A DNA stretch of 64,000 bases from contig VGDT01000012.1 in NCBI GenBank assembly GCA_016869595.1, positions 1 to 64,000 on the forward strand, written 5' to 3'. The notes below the pieces were generated by a model, which had not been told where the DNA came from, ran no database searches, and worked only from the letters and a program-made list of their open reading frames with translations. Source of the DNA: Alphaproteobacteria bacterium. GTDB lineage: Bacteria; Pseudomonadota; Alphaproteobacteria; Rhizobiales; Beijerinckiaceae. The first letter of the stretch is position 1, and each line of letters starts with the position of its first letter. Shown here piece by piece: positions 11,256-23,600 of the stretch. The translations under genes were made by a program, and so were the position numbers.

Positions 11256-12695
11256 TTAAAAATGCGTTGCAGCCGCCGCTTTGGACTCGGCCTGGCCAAG
11301 TTGTTCATCGCCTTCCGTCGCGCGCGGCAGCAAAACGCGCGCGATCAGGCCATGGGGTTCTCGATCAAGCAACGACACGGACCCGCCGTGGTTCTCAACA
11401 AGCGAGCGCACGATCGATAGCCCGAGTCCGAAGCCGCTGTGCTGGTCGAGCGTTCGTCCTGGCTGCCCGCGAACGAAAGGTTCAAAGGCGGATTTCTTAC
11501 TCTCCGCCGAAATCCCTGGCCCGTCGTCCACGACGTCGATCTGAAGAAGTTTCTCCGGACGTTCCGCCAAAAAAATGTCCGCGGTCTTCGCGTGATGCGT
11601 CGCGTTTTCGACAAGATTAGTGAAGATTCGCTGAATGTCGCTGAGCGACCCGAAAATCATTTTATGGCCGTCGCCATGGTAGGTGACATTGTGCCCAAGA
11701 TCACAAAACTCGTCCGCGACCGTTTGCAGAACGCTGTCCAGATCAATGAGCGAACAATCGGACTTGTCGTCTCCTTCAGCGCGCAAATATTGAAGATTCT
11801 TGAAAAGCATCCCGTCCATGAGATCGATGTCGCGCATCATGCGCTGCTGGAGGCTCTCATCAGAAACGAACTCCGTTTTCAGCTTCAGCCGCGTGATGAT
11901 CGTTCGCAAGTCATGGCTTACCGCCGCCAGCACATGAGCTCTCGCGGCGATCATCTTGCTGATGCGCGCCTGCATGCGGTTGAGCGAGCGCGTCAGCTCG
12001 CGAACTTCCTGCGGACCCCGTTCAGCGAGCGGCGTTTTTGTGTCGACGTCGTTTGGAATCTGCTCGGCGTATTTCGCAAGTCGTTGGAGCGGCGCCATGA
12101 TCGCGTTCAACGCCCAGAAAATGAAGATTGCAGTGAAGATGATGAAGGACAGCGCGGTTCGCGCGCCCTGAGTCAGGATGAAGGGTTCATCCTCCGCATG
12201 TTGCCAAAGCCACCGCCATATTGAGCCCGGAGATTTTTGATGCTGCGAAATTGAAATGGTCGCATAGCCGCCTTTGCGCAATTCGACAGCGAGGACACCG
12301 TAGTCTCCCGGGGCTGGACTGCCGACCTCGAACACGTCTGCGCCTTCCCACAACCGTGAATCGATGTGGCGGATTTCGTTGTCGAAGGCGACGTCCCGGC
12401 CAGACGAATCATTCGCCGCCGGAGGACGCGACTCTTGGATTGCGATATTGGCGTAGGGAACGGCATGAGAAAGCTCTGAAACGATAGTCGCTCGTTCCGA
12501 CAGTGGCGCGACATCCAACGCCAGGATTATGCCAGCAATAAAGTCGCCCTGGTCGACAATGTGGCGCCTGCCGAACACATGAAACATGCCGATAACGATC
12601 GTTTGAAACGCGACAATCGACACAAGAATGAGCAGCGTGATTTGCACGGCCAGCTTGTTGAGCGGGAAACGCCATCGTACGCTGCTGGGCTTCAT
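11256..12695 (-). CDS. Sensor histidine kinase (EnvZ-like)
   Basis: A 479 aa two-helix membrane kinase: TM1 about residues 15-38, a periplasmic domain of about 130 residues, TM2 about 183-203, HAMP, HisKA and HATPase. The N box is NLVENATHH, followed by DDGPGI and GFGLGLSIV. The H box reads AAVSHDLRTIITRLKLK. The proline that normally follows HDLRT in EnvZ-type kinases is Ile here, which in other kinases can change phosphatase behaviour. The start overlaps the response regulator stop by four bases, so the two are one operon. Divergence from the SulP/hydrogenase-related operon suggests it controls that operon. The ligand is unknown. Confidence 0.93.
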   Translation of the reverse strand: MKPSSVRWRFPLNKLAVQITLLILVSIVAFQTIVIGMFHVFGRRHIVDQGDFIAGIILALDVAPLSERATIVSELSHAVPYANIAIQESRPPAANDSSGRDVAFDNEIRHIDSRLWEGADVFEVGSPAPGDYGVLAVELRKGGYATISISQHQKSPGSIWRWLWQHAEDEPFILTQGARTALSFIIFTAIFIFWALNAIMAPLQRLAKYAEQIPNDVDTKTPLAERGPQEVRELTRSLNRMQARISKMIAARAHVLAAVSHDLRTIITRLKLKTEFVSDESLQQRMMRDIDLMDGMLFKNLQYLRAEGDDKSDCSLIDLDSVLQTVADEFCDLGHNVTYHGDGHKMIFGSLSDIQRIFTNLVENATHHAKTADIFLAERPEKLLQIDVVDDGPGISAESKKSAFEPFVRGQPGRTLDQHSGFGLGLSIVRSLVENHGGSVSLLDREPHGLIARVLLPRATEGDEQLGQAESKAAAATHF

Positions 12696-13411
12696 GCGCG
12701 CACCACCTGCGTCGAAAAGATATAGCCTTCGGAGCGCACCGTCTGAATCAACGCGGGCTTCTTCGGGTCCGCCTCTATCTTCTGCCGAAGCCGGCTGATC
12801 AGGACGTCGATGCTACGCTCGAAAGGACCGGATGTCGGGCCATGCGTCATGTTGATCAGCTGCTCGCGGGTCAACACCCGGTTCGGATTTTCGCATAACG
12901 CATGCAACAGATCGAATTCGGCGCCGGTCATTGCGACCTTCATTCCGCAAGGCGCGACGACTTCTCGGGCGAGCACGTCGACGCGCCAACCTGAGAAAAG
13001 ATAGGCCTGCCGAACCGTGCGCCCATCGACAGCGCTCGGGGCCTCGGTTCGCCTCAAGACGGCGCGGATGCGCGCCAGCAGCTCGCGCGAATTAAACGGC
13101 TTAACGATGTAATCGTCGGCCCCCAATTCGAGCCCCAAGATCTTATCGATATCCTCGGATTGCGCCGTCAGAATAATTATCGGAAGGCGTCGTTCGGAAC
13201 GCACGCGCCGACAGATCGAGAGACCGTCTTCGTCAGGCAGATTGAGATCAAGAATGAGCAGGTCATATGCGCCCGCGCCGAAAGCGGCGGCCATTTCCTG
13301 GGCGTTTGAAGCCACCTTTGTTTGGATATCGTGCGCCGCGAGATAGCGCGAGATGAACTCGCCGATTTCGGCATCGTCTTCGACGATCAGGATTGAAACG
13401 GGAGAAGTCAA
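12692..13411 (-). CDS. OmpR-family response regulator
   Basis: A 239 aa regulator. The receiver domain (1-120) has the acidic pair EDD near residue 11, the phospho-acceptor Asp in LILDLNLPDEDG, and Lys in YIVKPFNSRE. The C-terminal winged-helix domain (about 135-235) has the recognition-helix region ERSIDVLISRLRQKIE and the wing VRSEGYIF. It is the first gene of an operon with the EnvZ-like kinase (ATGA overlap). A direct repeat with 11-bp period (13460-13476) lies about 50 bases upstream of its start and is a candidate binding site. Confidence 0.95.
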   Translation of the reverse strand: MTSPVSILIVEDDAEIGEFISRYLAAHDIQTKVASNAQEMAAAFGAGAYDLLILDLNLPDEDGLSICRRVRSERRLPIIILTAQSEDIDKILGLELGADDYIVKPFNSRELLARIRAVLRRTEAPSAVDGRTVRQAYLFSGWRVDVLAREVVAPCGMKVAMTGAEFDLLHALCENPNRVLTREQLINMTHGPTSGPFERSIDVLISRLRQKIEADPKKPALIQTVRSEGYIFSTQVVRA

Positions 13412-13476: not shown

Positions 13477-13691
13477 CATCAAAAAATCGGCCTCAGCGCG
13501 CGGAGTTTGAACGCCTTTTGGACTTATGACCGAGTGGCGTCCTGATTCAGAAAGGAGCCAGAAACAATCTGTGCGCTGCGAAAAGATGGAGAAACACCCG
13601 ATCGGATGACCTGTCCTATGGTGCGGCCGCGCCAAGAAACCCGCGCTAAATTCCCATCCTGCCTTAACCTCATCAGTTGCAAGGACGAAGC

Positions 13692-15527
13692 ATGAAGAGC
13701 AAGGCTCACGCTCTTACGGATGGCTTGGAAGCCGCGGTCGACGCGAATGGCTCCCATCTCTCCGGCTCTCCGGCGCACGCCGAATGGCGCGCTTCTTGTG
13801 GTGAAAACTCGGCCGATGCCGAACAGCTTTCCCTCCTGACGGGTCAAGGTCCAGCCCCCAAGATTGAGAGCCGACACGGCATGAGCAAGGCGATTTCAAC
13901 TCGCTTCATTCCAAAAAGCGGGATCGCCGGATTGGTCGAAAATTGGCGAACGGACATCTTGTCCGGCTTCCTGGTCTTTCTCATCGCCTTGCCGCTGTGC
14001 CTCGGCATTTCGATGGCGTCGGGCTTTCCCCCGCAGGCGGGCATCATCACTGCGATCATTGGGGGCCTGCTCGTCTCGCGCATCAACGGTTCCTTCGTGA
14101 CCATCACCGGTCCGGCGGCAGGCCTCATCGTGGTCATTCTCGACTCGGTGCAGGCGCTCGGCGGCGGCGACGCCAAGGCCGGCTACCACTACACCTTGGC
14201 CGCGATCGTGTGCGCCAGCGTCATCCAGACGCTGATGGGCCTGATGAAGGCCGGCAAGATGAGCGCCTTTTTCCCGTCCTCCGCCGTGCATGGCATGCTG
14301 GCGGCGATCGGCATCATCATCATGGCCAAGCAGATTCACGTCATGCTCGGCGTTAAGCCCGACGCGCAGAGTCTGTTTGCGACGATCGGCGCTATCCCGA
14401 CAAGCCTTCGCGACATGAATCCGGAGGTCGCGATCATTGGCGGCCTTGGATTGCTCATCCTGATCGCCTGGTCGGTCGTGAAGAACCGCCGCCTAAAAAT
14501 GATTCCGGCGCCGATCATCGTCGTGATCGTCGGCATGGCGCTCGCGCAATATTTCGATCTCGACGACGAGCATATCTATCTTTTCCTGCCGGACTATCCG
14601 TTCCTGCCGCATCACGAATTCACGATCGGGCCGAAATTTCTGGTCTCCATCCCGCAGAACTTTCTGTCCGGCTTCGCCTTCCCGGATTTCTTATTGATCG
14701 GCACAAGCGTGTTCTGGCGACAGGTCTTTGCCATTTGTCTCGTTGGAAGCCTGGAAAGCTTGCTCAGCGCGGCGGCGGTTGATAAGCTCGATCCCTACAA
14801 GCGGACTTCCGATCTCAACCGCGACATCGCCGCGGTGGGCGTCGGCAACATCATCTGCGGCTTGATTGGCGGTATGCCGATGATCGCCGAAATCGTTCGC
14901 AGCTCAGCGAACGTTAACAATGGCGCACGCACGGGATGGGCGAATTTCTTCCACGGATTGTTCCTGCTGATCTTCGTCGCGCTGTTCCCGAAGGTCATTC
15001 ACGAAATCCCGCTGGCCTCGCTCGCCGCGCTCCTGGTGTTTACCGGCTATCGTCTTGCGTCTCCGCTCGAGTTTAAGAAAACCTTGGCGATCGGCTGGGA
15101 CCAGCTCACAGTCTTCATGATCACTATCATCGGCGTGCTGGCGACCGATCTCTTGATCGGCGTGGCGATCGGCATCGTCGCCGAGTTCCTGTTCCACGTG
15201 TGGCGCAGCGTCAATTGGGGCGAGGTCTTCAGGCTGCATCACGACGTCGTAGAGACTGAGCCGGGCGTTTATCACGTCAAAATCGGCGGCGCCGCCTTCT
15301 TCGCCAATTACCTTGCGCTCAAGAGCGATCTTGCGAAGCTCCCCAAGGGCAAGACGATCATCTTCGATCTTTCTGAGTCCTCATGCATTGACCATACGGT
15401 GATGGACAACCTCCATCACTTCTGCGAGGATTATGAAGCCAACGGCGGGCGCGCAGAGATTCGCGGACTCGATCAACACGTCGCGACATCCAACCATCCT
15501 CTCGCGCCCCGCAAGCGCGCCGCTTAG
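13692..15527 (+). CDS. SulP-family inorganic anion transporter with STAS domain
   Basis: SulP proteins carry sulfate, bicarbonate or other anions across the inner membrane. The protein is 611 aa: a hydrophilic N-terminal region of about 90 residues, 10-14 membrane helices (IALPLCLGISMASGFPP in the first; FVTITGPAAGLIVVI next), and a short C-terminal STAS domain (FDLSESSCIDHTVMDNL). The ATG at 13692 has a ribosome binding site (AAGGA). The ATG at 13881, which would give a more usual N-terminus, has none convincing. The hydrogenase-related operon follows after 57 bases, and this linkage suggests the anion flux is coupled to that complex. Bicarbonate is my preferred substrate by analogy with NuoL-linked carbon uptake systems; sulfate cannot be excluded. 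Confidence 0.88.
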   Translation: MKSKAHALTDGLEAAVDANGSHLSGSPAHAEWRASCGENSADAEQLSLLTGQGPAPKIESRHGMSKAISTRFIPKSGIAGLVENWRTDILSGFLVFLIALPLCLGISMASGFPPQAGIITAIIGGLLVSRINGSFVTITGPAAGLIVVILDSVQALGGGDAKAGYHYTLAAIVCASVIQTLMGLMKAGKMSAFFPSSAVHGMLAAIGIIIMAKQIHVMLGVKPDAQSLFATIGAIPTSLRDMNPEVAIIGGLGLLILIAWSVVKNRRLKMIPAPIIVVIVGMALAQYFDLDDEHIYLFLPDYPFLPHHEFTIGPKFLVSIPQNFLSGFAFPDFLLIGTSVFWRQVFAICLVGSLESLLSAAAVDKLDPYKRTSDLNRDIAAVGVGNIICGLIGGMPMIAEIVRSSANVNNGARTGWANFFHGLFLLIFVALFPKVIHEIPLASLAALLVFTGYRLASPLEFKKTLAIGWDQLTVFMITIIGVLATDLLIGVAIGIVAEFLFHVWRSVNWGEVFRLHHDVVETEPGVYHVKIGGAAFFANYLALKSDLAKLPKGKTIIFDLSESSCIDHTVMDNLHHFCEDYEANGGRAEIRGLDQHVATSNHPLAPRKRAA

Positions 15528-15584
15528 TTCCTAAATTCGCGCACGCGTGTCCGACGACCATCACGTCGACTCGAAGGTGAAAGC

Positions 15585-17582
15585 ATGCCGCTCTACTTAG
15601 CGCTGATCTGCGTCGGCGCGCTGCTTGCCGTCAGCGTTTACGCCATCGTCCAAAGGCGAAACCCTGACATCAGCCGCAACGTCTACCGTCTGTGCATCGC
15701 TTTGTGCGGCATCCTTTTCCTCGCAGCGGTTATGCCGAGAGGCGCCCATGTGGTTTCGGCGACTCTGCCGCTCGGCCTGCCGTGGATCGGCATGCATTTT
15801 CGCATCGACGTATTGAGCGCCTTTTTTCTCGCCGTCGTCAATCTCGGCGGCGCGGCGGCAAGCGCCTATGCGATCGGCTATGGCGCGCACGAGAAAGATC
15901 CCATGCGCGTGCTGCCGTTCTATCCGGCGTTTCTCGCAGGCATGAACGTCGTCGTGCTTGCAGATGACGCCTTCGCCTTTCTCGTCGCTTGGGAGTTCAT
16001 GTCGCTTGCGTCATGGGCACTGGTGCTGACGCATCACCATGAAGCGGAAAACAGGCGCGCCGGTTTCATCTATCTGTTGATGGCGAGTTTTGGCGGTTTC
16101 GCGCTGCTGATGGCTTTTGGCGTCCTTGGAGGAGTCGACGGAGCCTACGACTTCGCGTCCATCCGCGAATCCACGAAAGAGGCCTGGAAAGCCGGCCTGG
16201 TTTTGGCGCTCGCAATCGTTGGCATGGGCTCCAAAGCCGGACTCGCGCCTCTCCATATCTGGCTGCCGCTCGCGCATCCTGCGGCGCCGAGCCACGTCTC
16301 GGCTCTGATGAGCGGCGTTATGACGAAGGTCGCCGTCTATGGCTTCATTCGCGTTATATTCGACTTGCTCGGGCCGCCGGCCTTCTGGTGGTCGGTGGAG
16401 CCGATGACCTTTGGCGCGGCGAGCGCGCTCATCGGCGTTCTTTTCGCGACGATCCAGAGCGATCTGAAAAAGCTTCTCGCTTACAGCACGATTGAAAATA
16501 TCGGAATCATCTTCATCGCGCTCGGACTGGCGTTAGCGTTCAAAGCGAACGGCCTCGCGTTGCCCGCCGCGCTCGCCTTCACGGCCGCGCTGTTGCACGT
16601 TTTCAATCACTCGCTGTTTAAGAGCCTCCTGTTCTTCGGCGCTGGCGCCGTATTGAGCGGGAGCGGCGAAAGAAGCATCGAGCGTCTCGGCGGCCTCATC
16701 CACTCCATGCCAAAAACAGCGTTTCTGTTTCTCGGCGGCTGCGTCGCCATTTCCGCCTTGCCGCCGCTGAACGGCTTCGTGTCCGAATGGCTGGTGTTTC
16801 AAGCGATCCTGCTCAGCCCGTCGCTGCCGCAATGGACCGTAAAGCTTCTCGTTCCCGCTATCGGCGTGGCGCTGGCGCTAAGTGCGGCGCTTGGCGCTGG
16901 TTGTTATATCCGCGTCTATGGCGTCGCTTTCCTTGGCCGCCCGCGCAGCGAAGCCGCGCGCGCTGCGCAAGACCCTGATCGCTGGTCTCTCGGAACGATG
17001 GCGGTCTTGCTGACGCTTTGCCTCATGGCCGGTTTGCTGCCCAGCCTTCTCATCGACACGATTTCACCGGCGGCGCGAGACTTTGTTGGCGGCCGCATGC
17101 CCACGCAGGCGGAGCTTGCGTGGCTCTCGATCGCGCCTGTCGCCCAAAGCCGCAGTTCCTATAACGGACTTCTGGTCTTCGTCTTCATTCTCTTCTCGGC
17201 CTATTCGGCGAAATGGGTCATCCACAAATTCGGTTCATCACGCTCGCGACGCGCCCCGGCTTGGGACTGCGGTTACATCGAGACGAGCCCCACCACGCAA
17301 TATACGGGCAGCAGCTTTGCGCAGCCGATCCGGCGCACCCTCGGCGTCCTCGCCTTCTCAGTGAGGGAGCGTCTCGACATGCCGGCGCCAGGAGATATGC
17401 GCGCCGCGCGCCTGAGCGTCGACATCAAGGACCGAATCTTCGACTATCTCTACGCGCCGCTCACGCGGGCGGTTGAAACCTGCGCCTCCGGATTGAACAT
17501 CCTCAGTCTCCTGACAATTCAGGAATATCTCGCGCTCGTTTTCGGCGCCCTCGTCTTCCTGCTGGTCCTGGTGGCCATATGA
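15585..17582 (+). CDS. hyfB: HyfB-like membrane subunit (NuoL/Mrp antiporter type)
   Basis: A 665 aa antiporter-like membrane subunit of a group 4 hydrogenase-related complex. It has about 14-16 helices and retains residues implicated in ion pumping: Glu in VAWEFMSLASW, Lys in GSKAGLAPLHIWLPLAHP, Lys in DLKKLLAYSTIENIG, and His in HVFNHSLFKSLLFF. The C-terminal part (about 560-665) holds the HyfB-type stretch AWDCGYIETSPTTQYT. This is the first gene of the six-gene complex, 57 bases after the SulP transporter. Its stop overlaps hyfC by four bases. Expected role is proton or sodium translocation driven by electron transfer in the hydrophilic arm. Confidence 0.92.
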   Translation: MPLYLALICVGALLAVSVYAIVQRRNPDISRNVYRLCIALCGILFLAAVMPRGAHVVSATLPLGLPWIGMHFRIDVLSAFFLAVVNLGGAAASAYAIGYGAHEKDPMRVLPFYPAFLAGMNVVVLADDAFAFLVAWEFMSLASWALVLTHHHEAENRRAGFIYLLMASFGGFALLMAFGVLGGVDGAYDFASIRESTKEAWKAGLVLALAIVGMGSKAGLAPLHIWLPLAHPAAPSHVSALMSGVMTKVAVYGFIRVIFDLLGPPAFWWSVEPMTFGAASALIGVLFATIQSDLKKLLAYSTIENIGIIFIALGLALAFKANGLALPAALAFTAALLHVFNHSLFKSLLFFGAGAVLSGSGERSIERLGGLIHSMPKTAFLFLGGCVAISALPPLNGFVSEWLVFQAILLSPSLPQWTVKLLVPAIGVALALSAALGAGCYIRVYGVAFLGRPRSEAARAAQDPDRWSLGTMAVLLTLCLMAGLLPSLLIDTISPAARDFVGGRMPTQAELAWLSIAPVAQSRSSYNGLLVFVFILFSAYSAKWVIHKFGSSRSRRAPAWDCGYIETSPTTQYTGSSFAQPIRRTLGVLAFSVRERLDMPAPGDMRAARLSVDIKDRIFDYLYAPLTRAVETCASGLNILSLLTIQEYLALVFGALVFLLVLVAI

Positions 17583-18515
17583 CCTTTCTCTTCGATCTCA
17601 TGGCGCAGGGCATCCAAATGCTTTTGGTCCTTGCGCTCGCGCCTCTGCTCATCGGCTTTATCAGAAAGCAGAAGGCGCGCCTTCTGCGTCGTAAAGGCCC
17701 GCCGATCATCCAGCCCTGGCGCGACCTCATTCGATTGCTGCGTAAGGAAGTTGTTCTCGCCGAAAATGCGTCGTGGCTCTACCGCTCCGCGCCCTATCTG
17801 ATTTTCGCGATGACCTGGGTCGCCGCGTCGCTGGTGCCGACGTTCGCGACGGGATTGATGTTCAGCTGGTCGGCCGATCTCATCGCTATTATCGCCTTGC
17901 TCGGCAGCGCTCGCTTTTTCCTTGCTCTCGCCGGCATGGACATTGGCACGAGTTTCGGCGGCATCGGCTCGAGTCGCGAGGCGATGTTCGGCTCGCTGGC
18001 GGAGCCGGCCACGATCATGATCGTCTTCACCGTCTCCTACATCGCCGGAACGACGCAGCTCTCCGAAATCGCGGCCTATATGGCCGGCAATTTGGGGTTG
18101 CGCGCCTCAGTCGGCATGGCGCTCGTCGCCCTCCTCATTGTCGCCATCGCCTGTCGACAATCCAGCAACCCATCTGGAGCTGACGATGGTGCATGAAGCG
18201 ATGGTTCTCGAATATTCGGGGCGCTATCTGGCGCTCATTGAACTCGCTTCAGCGCTCAAACTGCTCCTTTACTTCTCGCTGATCGCCTGCGTCTTCTTCC
18301 CCATTGGCCTTGCGTCACACGATGCGGGCGTCCAAGCGATGTTGATCGGCTTTGGCGCATACATCCTAAAGCTTGCGATCGGCGGCGTCGTTCTCGCGCT
18401 GTTCGAGACATCCACAGCCAAGATGCGCGTCTTCCGCGTGCCAGACTTTCTCGGCGCAGGGCTGATGCTCGGCCTCCTCGCGACGCTGCTCGTTTTTGTG
18501 ACACGGAGCCTCTGA
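17579..18515 (+). pseudogene. hyfC: HyfC/HycD-like (NuoH-type) subunit gene, frameshifted by internal deletion
   Basis: The NuoH-like subunit anchors the hydrophilic arm and forms the entry of the proton path. Frame 17579-18196 reads normally (GPPIIQPWRDLIRLLRKE, GGIGSSREAMFGSLAEP) to LIVAI at 18148, then turns to nonsense and stops. The family sequence resumes in another frame at 18150 (PVDNPATHLELTMVHEA) and runs to 18515. Related proteins have ETxRxPVDNP here, so about 17 bases coding AETARI are missing, including the conserved Glu and Arg. Without correction the gene makes two halves, neither expected to work. Overlaps with hyfB (ATGA) and hyfE (TGATGG) are intact, so the damage looks recent. 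An assembly or sequencing error is the main alternative. Confidence 0.82.
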
Positions 18516-19177
18516 TGGAGCATCTAACAATCGACATCGCCCATGTGCTCGCCGGCGCGCTCGTGCTGACGAGCTTCATGCTGCTCTACCAGGATCGACT
18601 ATCCGGGCTCATCAATATCTACACCCTGCACGCCGTCGTTCTGTCGCTGTCTGTCGCCTGGCAGGCATATTATCAGGATGCGCCGCACCTCTATGTAACG
18701 GCGGCGATTGCAGTGATTTTCAAGGCCGTAATTATCCCCTTCAGCCTTCGCCGCATCATCGAACGACTTCGCATCCATCGTACCGTTGAAGTCGTCGGCG
18801 GCGTCGGCGTCACCATGCTCATCGGCATATTCCTTATGGCGCTGTCTCTGGTCGTGATGCTGCCGGCGACGGCCTCTGCGGATCCGCTGGCGCGGGAAGA
18901 TATCGCATTCGCTCTGGCGATCGTGCTGCTGGGTCTGTTGATGATGGTGACGCGACGCAACGCGGTCAGCCAGATCATCGGCTTCATGTCGCTCGAAAAC
19001 GGGTTGATTCTTGCCGCCGCGGGCGCGAATGGCATGCCGCTCGTCGTCGAGATCAGCGTCGCTTTCTCGATCCTGATCGCTTTCATCGTGATCGGCATCT
19101 TCCTGTTCCGCATTCGCGAACGCTTTGACAACGTCGATCTTTTCGAACTCGATCGCGTGCGCGGAGGGCGCTCATGA
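18515..19177 (+). CDS. hyfE: HyfE-like membrane subunit (NuoK-type)
   Basis: A 220 aa, six-to-seven-helix subunit of the HyfE family, related at its C-terminal half to NuoK/MrpC. Typical segments are YTLHAVVLSLSVAWQAYY and FKAVIIPFSLRRIIERL in the first half, and GFMSLENGLILAAAGANGMP near residue 155 in the second, where the buried Glu of the NuoK-like half is kept. It begins at the last base of the hyfC frame and its stop overlaps hyfF by four bases, so translation is coupled along the operon. Confidence 0.93.
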   Translation: MEHLTIDIAHVLAGALVLTSFMLLYQDRLSGLINIYTLHAVVLSLSVAWQAYYQDAPHLYVTAAIAVIFKAVIIPFSLRRIIERLRIHRTVEVVGGVGVTMLIGIFLMALSLVVMLPATASADPLAREDIAFALAIVLLGLLMMVTRRNAVSQIIGFMSLENGLILAAAGANGMPLVVEISVAFSILIAFIVIGIFLFRIRERFDNVDLFELDRVRGGRS

Positions 19178-20616
19178 GCTCCGATCTCTTCATGGTCTCG
19201 AACGCGCTTATTGGCATCCCCGCCGCGGCGGCCATTGCGGTCGCGCTCGAACCGGAATATCGCCGCTCGGCGATCATCAATGTCTGCGCCTCCGGCGCGA
19301 CATTTCTTTTCGCGCTTGTTCTGCTAATCGTCGAGCCCGAGAGCGGTGGTTATCTCTTCGTTGACGATCTCAACATCGTCTTCATCGTGCTTTCGACTTT
19401 CATCGGCTTCACCACGAGCGTTTACAGCGCGACCTATATCGACCATGAGATCGAAACCGGTCGGCTGACTTCGGCGAATGTCCGCTTCTATCACGCAATG
19501 TATCAGGCGCTGATGTGCGCGATGAATCTGGCGCTGCTTGCAAGCAATATCGGCCTCATGTGGGTCGCGGTCGAAGTCGCGACGCTGACCACCGTATTGA
19601 TGGTTGGCATCTACCGCACGCCGCATGCGCTTGAAGCCGCCTGGAAATATTTCATCCTCGGCAGCGTTGGCATCGCGCTGGCGCTCTTCGGAACGATTCT
19701 CGTTTACATGGCGGCTGAGCCCGTGCTGGGACATGACGCCATGGTTTGGAAGACGCTGATGCAGCAGGCGTCGCGGTTCGATCCCCGCATGCTCAACGTC
19801 GCCTTTGTCTTCTTGATGCTCGGTTACGGCACGAAAGTTGGCTTGGCGCCGATGCACGCCTGGCTTCCAGATGCGCATGCGGAAGGCCCGACGCCAATCT
19901 CGGCAGTTTTGTCAGGCCTTCTCCTCAACGTCGCGCTTTATGCGGTGCTGCGGTTCAAGATGCTGCTGACCGCCAATGCGGCGGCGATCACGCCGGGGCC
20001 GCTGATGATCACCCTCGGCCTCGCCTCGCTCATCATGGCGGCTTTCATGCTCTACCGCCGTGACGACATCAAACGGCTCTTCGCCTACTCCTCCATCGAG
20101 CACATGGGCATCATCGCCTTCGCCTTCGGCATGGGCGGCCCCCTCGCCAATTTCGCCGGTCTGCTGCATATGACCATGCATAGCCTGACAAAGTCCGCGA
20201 TCTTTTTCTCGGTCGGCCACATCGCGCAGGCCAAGGGAACGCAGAAGATCGCTGAGATCAGGGGACTGACGCAGAGCCAGCCGGCGCTCGGCTGGAGCCT
20301 CGTTGCCGGCGTCGTGGCGATCATCGGCCTGCCGCCCCTCGGCATCTTCATGAGCGAATTTCTGGTCGTGAGTTCGACCTTCGCGCGCCAGCCGCTCCTC
20401 GCGATTCCCCTGGTTTTCGGTCTCCTTCTCGCCTTCGGCGCCTTGCTGCTGCGACTCATCGGAATGGCGTTCGGCGAGCCGAGCCGGGATGCAGGCGAAG
20501 TGAAGGCTTCGATGTTGCCGCTCTACGCGCATCTCTCGCTCGTGCTGCTCGCCGGTCTCTATCTGCCGTCTCACCTGGTGGCCTGGTTCCAGAACGTCGC
20601 GCGCCTCTTGGGTTGA
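19174..20616 (+). CDS. hyfF: HyfF-like membrane subunit (NuoM/NuoN antiporter type)
   Basis: A 480 aa antiporter-like subunit with about 14 helices. Ion-pumping residues are conserved: Glu in WVAVEVATLTTVLM, Lys in GYGTKVGLAPMHAWLPDAHAE, Lys in DDIKRLFAYSSIEHMG, and Lys in MHSLTKSAIFF. With HyfB this gives the complex two antiporter-like modules, as in E. coli hydrogenase 4. The gene overlaps hyfE by four bases and ends 17 bases before the large-subunit start at 20634. Confidence 0.94.
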   Translation: MSSDLFMVSNALIGIPAAAAIAVALEPEYRRSAIINVCASGATFLFALVLLIVEPESGGYLFVDDLNIVFIVLSTFIGFTTSVYSATYIDHEIETGRLTSANVRFYHAMYQALMCAMNLALLASNIGLMWVAVEVATLTTVLMVGIYRTPHALEAAWKYFILGSVGIALALFGTILVYMAAEPVLGHDAMVWKTLMQQASRFDPRMLNVAFVFLMLGYGTKVGLAPMHAWLPDAHAEGPTPISAVLSGLLLNVALYAVLRFKMLLTANAAAITPGPLMITLGLASLIMAAFMLYRRDDIKRLFAYSSIEHMGIIAFAFGMGGPLANFAGLLHMTMHSLTKSAIFFSVGHIAQAKGTQKIAEIRGLTQSQPALGWSLVAGVVAIIGLPPLGIFMSEFLVVSSTFARQPLLAIPLVFGLLLAFGALLLRLIGMAFGEPSRDAGEVKASMLPLYAHLSLVLLAGLYLPSHLVAWFQNVARLLG

Positions 20617-20633
20617 GCACGAAGGATGAAGAA

Positions 20634-22151
20634 ATGAACTTCGCCAGCAAACAAACGGCGCGTCGGTCGTCGCAGCCGACCTGCCTGCCCTGGCCGCGCG
20701 AGATTGTCGATAGAACGGGCTGGCTCGCCTTTGCAGAGAGTCTCGCGAAAGGCGAACGCGAACTGCTCAGTCTTTGGGGCGAAGGTTCGAGCGTTCATAT
20801 GGCCGTGCTCGAACAGCGAGAGCCGCGCCTGCGCATTGTCAGCTTGGAATGTCCGGACGGCGCTTTTCCTTCGGTCGCACGACTTCATATCCCGGCGTCG
20901 AGGCTAGAGCGCGCAATATGCGATCTCTATGGTTTAAAGTCCGTAGGCGCGCCCGACCATCGTCCCTGGCTCGACCACGGGCGCTGGGGAATTCGTCAAC
21001 CCTGCGGCGCGCGGAAAGAAATCGATTCCACCTGTGATCCTTACGAATTTCTTCCGGTAGAAGGCGAACCTTTTCACCAGATACCGGTCGGGCCCGTGCA
21101 CGCCGGCATTATCGAGCCGGGCCATTTCCGCTTCTCCGCGAACGGCGAAACTGTGATTCGTCTAGAGGAGCGGCTCGGCTTCGTGCACAAGGGCATAGAC
21201 CGGTTGACGAGCGGCGCCTCGATCGAGCGCGCTGCGCAGATCGCGGCGCGCGTTTCCGGCGACAGCACGGTCGCCTACAGCCTCGCCTTTGCACAAGCGG
21301 TCGAGGCCGCCTTTGACGTCAATGTTCCGCCGCGCGCCGCCTATCTGCGCGCCTTGATGGCTGAACTCGAACGGCTCGCCAATCATTTCGGCGATGTCGG
21401 CGCCATATGCAACGACGCGGCCTTCGCATTGATGCATGCGCAATGCGGTCTTGTGCGCGAACGCATTTTGAGGGAAGCCGCAACCTGTTTCGGACACCGG
21501 CTGATGATGGATCGCATCGCGCCTGGCGGCGTCGTCGTTGATTTGGAGCGAGAAAAAGTCTCGGGACTTTACACGCTCATCGACTGGATCGAGCTGATGA
21601 CTCCGCGGCTGATCGCGCTCTTCGGCGACACGACGTCGCTGCAGGATCGCACCGTCGGAACTGGCGTCGTCAGTGAGGCCCTCGCAAAACAATATGCCTG
21701 CGGCGGCTATGTCGGACGCGCCTCAGGCCGGGCGTTCGACGCGCGCAAAGCGATTGGTTACGCCCCCTATCCGCAGCTCGCGTTTGAGATCGGCGCCTCA
21801 AAGGAGTGCGATGTGGACGCTCGCGTTTGGGTCCGGTTCGACGAGATCAGAGCGTCACTGCAAATCGTCAGACAAATTCTCGACGCAGCTCCAGAAGGTC
21901 CGATCATCGCCGCCTGGACGCTTCCCGAAGACTGGACGCGCGAAGGCGCTGCTCTCGTCGAAGGATTCCGCGGCGAGATTTTTGTCTGGCTTCGCATCCG
22001 TGCAGATGGCGTGATTCAGCGCTGTCACATGCGCGATCCGTCGTGGTTTCAGTGGCCATTGCTCGAAGCGGCCATCAAGGACAACATCGTCGCCGACTTC
22101 CCGCTCTGCAACAAATCCTTCAACTGTTCCTACTCCGGGCACGACCTCTAG
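20634..22151 (+). CDS. hyfG: HyfG/HycE-like large subunit lacking all Ni-binding cysteines
   Basis: A 505 aa fusion of a NuoC-like domain (about 1-150) and a NuoD/NiFe-large-subunit-like domain (about 160-505), as in HycE/HyfG. Where hydrogenases have RVCGIC, this protein has RVSGDS (after HKGIDRL). Where they end in DPCYSC, it has NCSYSG within NKSFNCSYSGHDL. All four Ni,Fe ligands are therefore absent, and no C-terminal peptide follows for maturation cleavage. It cannot be a hydrogenase; it matches the energy-converting hydrogenase-related (Ehr) type. The ATG at 20634 has a ribosome binding site (GAAGGA) and is preferred to the TTG at 20613. The redox partner is unknown. Confidence 0.92.
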   Translation: MNFASKQTARRSSQPTCLPWPREIVDRTGWLAFAESLAKGERELLSLWGEGSSVHMAVLEQREPRLRIVSLECPDGAFPSVARLHIPASRLERAICDLYGLKSVGAPDHRPWLDHGRWGIRQPCGARKEIDSTCDPYEFLPVEGEPFHQIPVGPVHAGIIEPGHFRFSANGETVIRLEERLGFVHKGIDRLTSGASIERAAQIAARVSGDSTVAYSLAFAQAVEAAFDVNVPPRAAYLRALMAELERLANHFGDVGAICNDAAFALMHAQCGLVRERILREAATCFGHRLMMDRIAPGGVVVDLEREKVSGLYTLIDWIELMTPRLIALFGDTTSLQDRTVGTGVVSEALAKQYACGGYVGRASGRAFDARKAIGYAPYPQLAFEIGASKECDVDARVWVRFDEIRASLQIVRQILDAAPEGPIIAAWTLPEDWTREGAALVEGFRGEIFVWLRIRADGVIQRCHMRDPSWFQWPLLEAAIKDNIVADFPLCNKSFNCSYSGHDL

Positions 22152-22159
22152 GACGAGCG

Positions 22160-22675
22160 ATGCAGAAATTCATGCTCCAGGGCTTGCTACGACGCGCGTT
22201 GACCGAACAGGCTCCCGCACCGGATGCGACGTCGATGGCCGAGCTCGGCTACACGCTGGGGCGCACGGCGCGACAGAAACTCGGACGCAGCCTCTCCATT
22301 CGCGAGGTCGATGCGGGCTCCTGCAATGGTTGCGAGCTCGAAATTCACGCGCTCAACAATGCCTATTATGATCTCGAAAGATTTGGCATGCGTTTCGTGG
22401 CGTCGCCGCGTCATGCCGACGTTTTGCTTGTCACCGGGCCGGTGACGAAGAACATGCGCGAAGCGCTTGAACGAACCTACGCAGCGACGCCCGATCCGAA
22501 ATGGGTGATTGCAGTCGGCGATTGCGCTTTCGACGGCGGAGTTTTTTGTGAGAGCTACGCATGCGTTGGCGCGGTTGCGAGCGTCGTTCCAGTCGATCTC
22601 CATATCCGTGGGTGCCCGCCCGATCCGACGACGCTGCTGAAAGGGCTGATCGCCTTCGTTGAGAATATGGAATAA
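22160..22675 (+). CDS. hyfI: HyfI/HycG-like small subunit (NuoB type) with intact Fe-S ligands
   Basis: A 171 aa NuoB-like subunit that carries the proximal [4Fe-4S] cluster at the interface with the large subunit. Four ligand cysteines are present: CNGCELE (two), GDCAFDGG and RGCPPDP. The ATG at 22160 follows the large-subunit stop by eight bases with the sequence AGGACGAGCG ahead of it. The open frame upstream is only shadow. This is the last gene of the complex. No 2x[4Fe-4S] ferredoxin subunit (HyfH/HycF), formate dehydrogenase or maturation protease is nearby, so the electron donor must come from elsewhere. Confidence 0.95.
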   Translation: MQKFMLQGLLRRALTEQAPAPDATSMAELGYTLGRTARQKLGRSLSIREVDAGSCNGCELEIHALNNAYYDLERFGMRFVASPRHADVLLVTGPVTKNMREALERTYAATPDPKWVIAVGDCAFDGGVFCESYACVGAVASVVPVDLHIRGCPPDPTTLLKGLIAFVENME

Positions 22676-22741: not shown

Positions 22742-23432
22742 GCTCTGCCGGGATGGACGGTCGCTGCTGCCGCGCACTGCGTCAATAACGTCGAATCTTT
22801 CGGCGTATAACTCTCCGCGGCCCACGGACCATTCTCGCTGCAGGCGGAATATTTGGGTCAGCAGGTCAACCGCAACTCGACGAACATCGCGCTCGCGCGC
22901 CTCGCAGGCGTTTTCGCGCCGGGCGGCGCCTCGCATTATTTCGGCGGCTTTTACGTCTATGGCCACTGGTATTTGACCGGCGAGAAACGCGCGGCCGCAT
23001 ATGACGTGACGAACAAACTCGGAGCGAATTTCAGTCAGATCGCAATCAAAAATCCGGTAAGCACGGGGGGCTTCGGCGCCGTGGGCCTTGCGGCGCGCTA
23101 CAGCGCGCTCAATCTCAACAGTGGGCCTTATTCCGGCTCAGGCCTCTACAACATGCTCGCCTATACGACGCTCATCGCGCCTAATCCATTCGCCGCCTCT
23201 TACATCGCCAATGCGGGCGTCGTCGGCGGGCGCCAGCAGAACGTCACTTTGGGAATTAATTGGTATCCTGAAAATGGATTCCACTTTCAGTTCAATTGGA
23301 TCCATATGCTGCAAGCCTCTGCGCCGCTCAATGACTATGCGCTCTTCGCCGCCGGCGTTCCTGCGCGACAGGGCCCCTATTTCAATGGCGCTCATCCTGA
23401 TCTCTTCGAGGCGCGCGCAGGCCTTCTGGTAA
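22742..23432 (+). pseudogene. Remnant of an OprO/OprP-type porin
   Basis: The plus-strand frame reads as the C-terminal part of a phosphate-selective-type porin: GPFSLQAEYLGQQ, FGGFYVYGHWYLTGE, and VTLGINWYPENGFHFQFNW. It is broken three ways. The N-terminal half is missing. There is an in-frame TAA at 22808-22810 (probably GAA originally). A one-base loss near the end moves the natural terminus RAQAFW-stop (23430-23432) out of frame, so the reading frame runs on to 23530. The porin lies directly after the hydrogenase-related operon and may once have belonged with the SulP transporter as its outer-membrane channel. Confidence 0.8.
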
Positions 23433-23600
23433 GACATCACCAACCAACATGTGTCGCGCCGCACAGCAGCGGCGCGACAAATTTGCAACGCTTGCCGAAA
23501 TTCGTCGACGAAGATCGGAACAGAGCTTGATTTTACGTGTTGTTAGGATGACGCTTGAGACCGGTTGTTCGGTGGTCCGTCTCTAAAGAGGAGATTCAAA

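Follow-up and report, generated by a model that had tools for sequence, protein, structure and literature searches.

Ehr complexes, which are related to complex I and to hydrogenases, are widespread and have no known reaction. Passages of PMC6349859 and PMC10284858 describe them as group 4 hydrogenase relatives that lack the Ni,Fe ligands, carry antiporter-like subunits and have an unknown function, and redox-driven ion pumping by the family is suspected. In DAB systems, as presented in part of PMC13144422, the NuoL-like protein DabB is tied to inorganic carbon uptake. No link of a SulP transporter to hyf or Ehr genes was found in the literature searched, which covered few subscription journals.

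Here we describe a real, conserved and recurrent gene association of SulP transporters with complexes of the known Ehr class. The window, by which we mean the whole 64,000-nucleotide stretch of DNA that was analysed (contig VGDT01000012.1, positions 1 to 64,000), belongs to a 3.28 Mb genome in 152 contigs that encodes a particulate methane monooxygenase and has alphaproteobacterial relatives. The features of the locus are:

11256..12695, minus strand: sensor histidine kinase, partner of the response regulator (Pfam HAMP, HisKA, HATPase_c)
12692..13411, minus strand: response regulator, divergent, candidate regulator of the cluster (Pfam Response_reg, Trans_reg_C)
13677..15527, plus strand: SulP-family anion transporter with STAS domain (Pfam Sulfate_transp 200.8 bits, STAS 25 bits)
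15585..17582, plus strand: HyfB-like antiporter-type membrane subunit, NuoL family (NCBIfam hydrogenase 4 subunit B 820.8 bits, cut-off 667)
17579..18515, plus strand: HyfC-like membrane subunit, NuoH family, frameshifted (Pfam NADHdh in both pieces)
18515..19177, plus strand: HyfE-like membrane subunit with NuoK-like C-terminal part (NCBIfam hydrogenase 4 membrane subunit 85.8 bits, below the cut-off of 136)
19174..20616, plus strand: HyfF-like antiporter-type membrane subunit (NCBIfam hydrogenase 4 subunit F 831.8 bits, cut-off 533)
20613..22151, plus strand: HyfG-like large subunit, NuoC+NuoD fusion type, without Ni ligands (Pfam Complex1_49kDa, Complex1_30kDa)
22148..22675, plus strand: HyfI-like small subunit, NuoB family, with four Fe-S cysteines (Pfam Oxidored_q6 117.9 bits)

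The SulP start codon is a TTG at 13677, with the next in-frame ATG at 13692, and 57 nt in which no terminator-like site was found separate the SulP stop from the hyfB start; neighbouring hyf genes overlap by 1-4 nt. The initial annotation had described a SulP gene followed by six overlapping hyf-like genes, and the 57-nt gap and gene order stand, but hyfC is not one open gene. This layout is more than chance, as it recurs in 27 genomes of the genus. The HyfE-like subunit also fell under the Pfam Oxidored_q2 cut-off (24.3 bits against 26.1). Between SulP and a porin gene fragment only the B, C, E, F, G and I types were found; hyfA, hyfD, hyfH and hyfJ, present in E. coli hyf, were all missing from the window cluster, and because HyfH and HyfA are among them the cluster encodes one Fe-S cluster site. 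The porin fragment (22853-23530) encodes 225 aa, its counterpart in locus L034 is 584 aa, and the window is about 1.2 kb shorter than L034 in the interval downstream of hyfI.

Alignment of the window HyfG with E. coli HyfG and HycE agrees with the initial annotation that all four Ni,Fe ligands are gone from the large subunit: RVSGDS and NCSYSG (within SFNCSYSG) stand in place of RVCGIC and DPCYSC, all four ligand cysteines are absent, and the group 4 [NiFe] hydrogenase motifs RxCGxC and DPCxxC find no match. A complete CxxC pair occurs in none of 117 aligned family rows, mostly alphaproteobacterial with some beta- and gammaproteobacterial members (the window plus 30 genus-set, 80 named and 6 other loci, among which L046 and L064 have identical sequences from one genome). 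One Ni-ligand cysteine is retained in L085, and the L143 and L177 rows stop before the second motif. Among the reference rows both pairs were present in E. coli HyfG, HycE and two Azospirillum hydrogenases, and a second Variovorax protein did not have both. Homologues with intact CxxC pairs, which the initial annotation had listed as counter-evidence, were not found in close relatives, the nearest ones seen having at most about 30% identity. On an Azospirillum lipoferum plasmid (L185:2123-11317), an aldehyde ferredoxin oxidoreductase gene precedes a group 4 hydrogenase-like cluster whose CxxC pairs are intact.

Seven HyfG residues (Arg213, Ser215, Gly216, Asp217, Asn504, Gly509 and Asp511) are invariant in 41 diverse members, and HyfG dN/dS was 0.10-0.11 in three pairwise comparisons, indicating that the Ni-less subunit is under constraint. 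The replaced Ni site is thus constrained and not decayed, and the loss of Ni is old in this complex's family. We rejected a recent loss tied to SulP: the absence of a complete CxxC pair extends to all 117 rows, SulP-free members included, and since members outside the two SulP-linked groups are nearly all SulP-less, the supposed coupling of Ni loss to the SulP link is not supported. By sequence the best PDB match of HyfG was HycE of the E. coli FHL complex (7z0s, E 1e-49), and its predicted fold was likewise nearest to HycE 7z0s (Foldseek TMq 0.80), with complex I NuoCD next. In the AlphaFold model, pLDDT is below 50 at 145-192 and 489-512, spanning the region of the former Ni site, and for this reason we claim no pocket there.

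The other subunits retain the Fe-S cysteines and pumping residues that the initial annotation named. Of 114 HyfI rows, 112 have the four Fe-S cysteines (Cys59, 62, 126 and 156) and two are gapped there. Each pumping Glu or Lys residue is found in at least 136 of 140 rows for HyfB (Glu137, Lys217, Lys248, Lys346, Glu401) and in at least 151 of 153 for HyfF (Glu134, Lys221, Lys340, Glu395). Homology, motif loss and the antiporter-like subunits support the earlier reading of a Ni-less, hydrogenase-related complex, which is of Ehr type in a minimal six-subunit form that is usually free-standing.

A frameshift in hyfC may have left the complex inactive in the window's own genome. The open frame of hyfC runs from 17579 to 18196, the C-terminal part lies in a different frame (18138-18515), and the gene is 17 nt shorter than in three aligned relatives; each of the 30 other genus loci containing both halves has hyfC as a single stop-free frame. 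Either a true mutation or a fault of the assembly may account for the frameshift. That the operon is decaying and non-functional in this genome is possible, though we doubt it: the frameshift and the truncation of the downstream porin gene relative to L034 speak for decay, but dN/dS was 0.033-0.152 across all cluster genes in three pairwise comparisons, indicating purifying selection on all of them, and hyfC behind the frameshift showed no clear relaxation (0.138 against L034 and 0.098 against L035, with the L034-L035 pair at 0.116 as baseline). The possible assembly fault also weighs against decay.

Relatives of HyfG were found in at least 574 instances among named genomes, of which 80 were kept (Rhizobium, Mesorhizobium, Bradyrhizobium, Azospirillum and others), and in samples they occurred at E <=1e-60 in 62 of 398 genomes from the phylum and in 32 of 385 from the class. 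The hyf operon is usually free-standing, often with a helix-turn-helix gene in front. Because taking the longest ORF misses genes in GC-rich DNA, SulP was also sought by tblastn, and none was found beside hyf in 122 loci outside the two linked groups; 94 of these include both flanks, with 2 kb or more in front of hyfB and 1.5 kb or more behind hyfI, the others are cut by contig ends, and not all are distinct (the L093 and L238 HyfG rows are identical). Clustering of flanking ORFs for a conserved partner other than SulP returned mainly small helix-turn-helix genes and no shared enzyme. SulP was rejected as an obligate subunit, since each partner occurs alone in the genus and all 122 loci elsewhere are SulP-free. 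Two hyfB-like genes lie in tandem within the hyf operons of L208 and L209, and caspase-domain genes, maybe by coincidence, were seen several kb from hyf in L163:1-3972 (Rhizobium johnstonii 3841) and L211:12361-13974.

Within the window's genus of methanotrophs bearing particulate methane monooxygenase, HyfG was found in 31 of 37 genomes, the window's included (G029 held only a fragment), and the window-type SulP in 29 of 37. In 27 of these 29 the SulP gene immediately precedes hyfB in the same orientation, at a distance of 34-226 nt in the 26 loci read; on three of the 27 the contig is incomplete, holding only the SulP end in G001 and G033 and stopping after hyfE in G030. The partners also occur apart. 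SulP is present and hyf was not detected in G003 (99% complete) and G013; hyf occurs without a window-type SulP in G025, G034 and G035, and G015 is cut. Second hyf copies that are SulP-less or damaged were found in G007 and G018; one damaged copy has the start of hyfB fused into the end of hyfF (L058:10873-12795), and behind a SulP-less copy lies a SulP remnant in opposite orientation (L062:8724-9353). A free-standing second SulP occurs in five genus genomes; such copies of the window-type gene at a second genus locus (L171-L176, L178) are in some cases beside a TerB-domain gene.

The response regulator adjoins SulP in many, not all, genus loci, and the two-component pair was missing from the flanks searched in L048, L052, L056 and L061, where the SulP-hyfB link is kept. 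In a HyfG tree built by a quick method with SH-aLRT support only, the SulP-linked genus rows form one set, including L063 (upstream side cut), and the SulP-less genus copies are sister to it. By this grouping the genus link arose once. The 27 linked genomes are therefore not 27 independent events, SulP having been retained by common descent, and the link has persisted among copies whose HyfG identity falls to about 66%, while the flanks changed.

A second association came from the order of Competibacteraceae, whose members lie far from the methanotrophs in the HyfG tree. In L126, a Competibacteraceae contig, the start of a different SulP, 25% identical to the window's, overlaps the end of hyfI. 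HyfG was found in 29 of 40 genomes of the order, giving 30 loci, and at 14 of these a DauA-type SulP, 85-100% identical to that of L126, adjoins hyf on the same strand. Twelve lie downstream, at 51-289 nt in ten loci and at 1216 and 2839 nt in two, and two lie upstream, at 63 and 161 nt, so that 12 of the 14 linked loci are within 300 nt. Where both flanks could be seen, SulP was beside hyf in 12 of 17 loci and was not found in L261, L265, L270, L271 and L280. The upstream-SulP loci group apart from the downstream ones, and the link therefore outlived a rearrangement or arose again. This second link is independent of the first. The linkage proposed at the outset is thus conserved in the genus and recurs elsewhere with another SulP subfamily; a lack of any conserved linkage elsewhere had been named beforehand as an argument against it.

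The window SulP stayed under three NCBIfam cut-offs, with 191.6 of 614 bits for DauA (NF008660), 172.1 bits for sulP (cut-off 380.45) and 115.8 bits for BicA (NF050096, cut-off 880); its PDB relatives include SLC26Dg (5da0) and BicA (6ki1). Three proteins tested from the Competibacteraceae order exceeded the DauA cut-off of 614, at 755.6, 709.3 and 746.8 bits. A Glu in the TM8 of SulP proteins may mark H+ coupling, and the window SulP carries a Glu in the stretch aligned with TM8. The nearest plasmid-borne SulP, 55% identical to the window's, is on a Methylomagnum ishizawai plasmid (L162:9824-16629), downstream of genes annotated amoA, amoB, amoC, MFS transporter and glutathione S-transferase. 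Elsewhere in the window's genome (contig C22:30017-32903) a beta-type carbonic anhydrase gene lies 0.9 kb upstream of another SulP, 37% identical to the window's, and this pair is likely a bicarbonate module. No RuBisCO was found in the genome, nor any match to DabA (PF10070), for which a control search matched in 2 of 14 genomes.

We tentatively favour, at a little under even confidence, a redox-driven H+ pump serving SulP as an H+-coupled anion symporter. Gene content, conserved residues, the lack of Ni ligands, the conserved and recurrent linkage and purifying selection are the observations on which it builds. The membrane arm has two antiporter-like subunits, a NuoH-like and a HyfE-like subunit, and the cytosolic pair combines one Fe-S cluster site with the remodelled, Ni-free former active site. 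Electrons would most likely pass from a cytosolic donor via the single Fe-S cluster to an acceptor, most likely a quinone or small molecule and not protons, located where the Ni site was, and this flow would drive H+ pumping. In the genus the complex would be co-transcribed with SulP, which would most likely import its anion together with H+, using the proton-motive force; the pump may supply that force locally, or the imported anion may feed the same pathway. The recurrence of SulP beside the complex in unrelated bacteria hints that the two work together, and because two subfamilies are involved it argues for a link to SulP transport as such and not to one substrate. Such a recurrent partner in two unrelated lineages offers a handle on Ehr function, with a testable anion-uptake phenotype and candidate organisms.

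Several observations count against the favoured pump. Outside the two groups all 122 loci carry a free-standing complex, the partners are found apart in the genus (G025, G034 and G035; G003 and G013), SulP is lacking at 5 of 17 Competibacteraceae-order loci with both flanks, the cluster has no electron-input subunit (HyfA, HyfH), hyfC is broken in the window's genome, and the genus link was inherited by common descent. A serious rival, which we nevertheless consider unlikely, is a neutral or regulatory fusion in which SulP, with its promoter and two-component regulator, landed before hyf and replaced the XRE-type regulator present in other copies, the products not cooperating. A single origin would account for the genus link, each partner occurs without the other, and SulP-less copies, such as L060, have a helix-turn-helix gene before hyfB; however, a fusion of this kind sits poorly with a second lineage whose 14 linked loci all have a SulP of another subfamily in the orientation of the operon, in front of it in some and behind it in others, and with a link kept despite changing flanks. 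The stronger proposition, that the Ni-free Ehr complex and SulP form one machine in which the redox reaction of the remodelled large subunit drives anion import, through direct contact or through a local proton circuit common to both, and that this pairing evolved twice with different SulP subfamilies, strikes us as improbable when taken as a whole.

As to the anion, the initial annotation had envisaged ion- or redox-powered uptake, perhaps of bicarbonate. That reading is partly supported: the SulP link is conserved and recurrent, but bicarbonate is only one candidate. Serine-cycle methanotrophs require bicarbonate for PEP carboxylase, a need that would suit SulP importing bicarbonate for carboxylations with the complex powering import, in the manner of DAB or of the NDH-1 complexes for CO2 uptake in cyanobacteria. 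Some SulP proteins are bicarbonate transporters, and part of PMC11423575, which makes this anion plausible in methanotrophs, proposes a bicarbonate role for a carbonic anhydrase-SulP operon in Methylococcus capsulatus. Among the window genes examined, however, no carbonic anhydrase lies in or next to the cluster, and the window SulP is far under the BicA cut-off. The separate carbonic anhydrase-SulP pair on C22 and the failure to detect RuBisCO or DabA are why bicarbonate is not favoured over other anions; the DauA-type SulP of the second lineage also bears on it, and we hold inorganic carbon uptake to be quite improbable. About as doubtful is that SulP imports a dicarboxylate or other reduced organic anion whose oxidation gives the complex electrons: the three tested Competibacteraceae-order SulP proteins exceed the cut-off for DauA, a C4-dicarboxylic acid transporter, but the window SulP falls far below it and the cluster encodes no dehydrogenase.

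Compared with known systems, the locus is closest to Ehr complexes, sharing a large subunit related to group 4 hydrogenases, the missing Ni,Fe ligand cysteines and antiporter-like membrane subunits (HyfB and HyfF exceed their NCBIfam cut-offs), and differing in being limited to six subunits, in lacking cluster-encoded HyfH/NuoI and HyfA, and in having SulP in the operon. With E. coli hydrogenase 4 and formate hydrogenlyase (hyf, hyc) it has in common the families and order of hyfB, C, E, F, G and I, whereas the E. coli hyf cluster includes hyfA, D, H and J as well and has its Ni ligands intact. Respiratory complex I shares homologous subunits (NuoB, C, D, H, L/M/N) and pump residues, but its NADH module and NuoI have no counterpart in the cluster, and the window's NuoD-like subunit has its own conserved motif where complex I has its usual site; a separate NuoD is encoded on contig C9. 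DAB has a NuoL-like subunit in common with the window complex, which differs in having six complex I-like subunits instead of one and no DabA partner. The window SulP shares Sulfate_transp and STAS domains with the SulP transporters DauA, BicA and SLC26Dg. A functional pairing of SulP with the complex would tie redox-driven pumping to solute uptake in a new way, beside DAB and cyanobacterial NDH-1.
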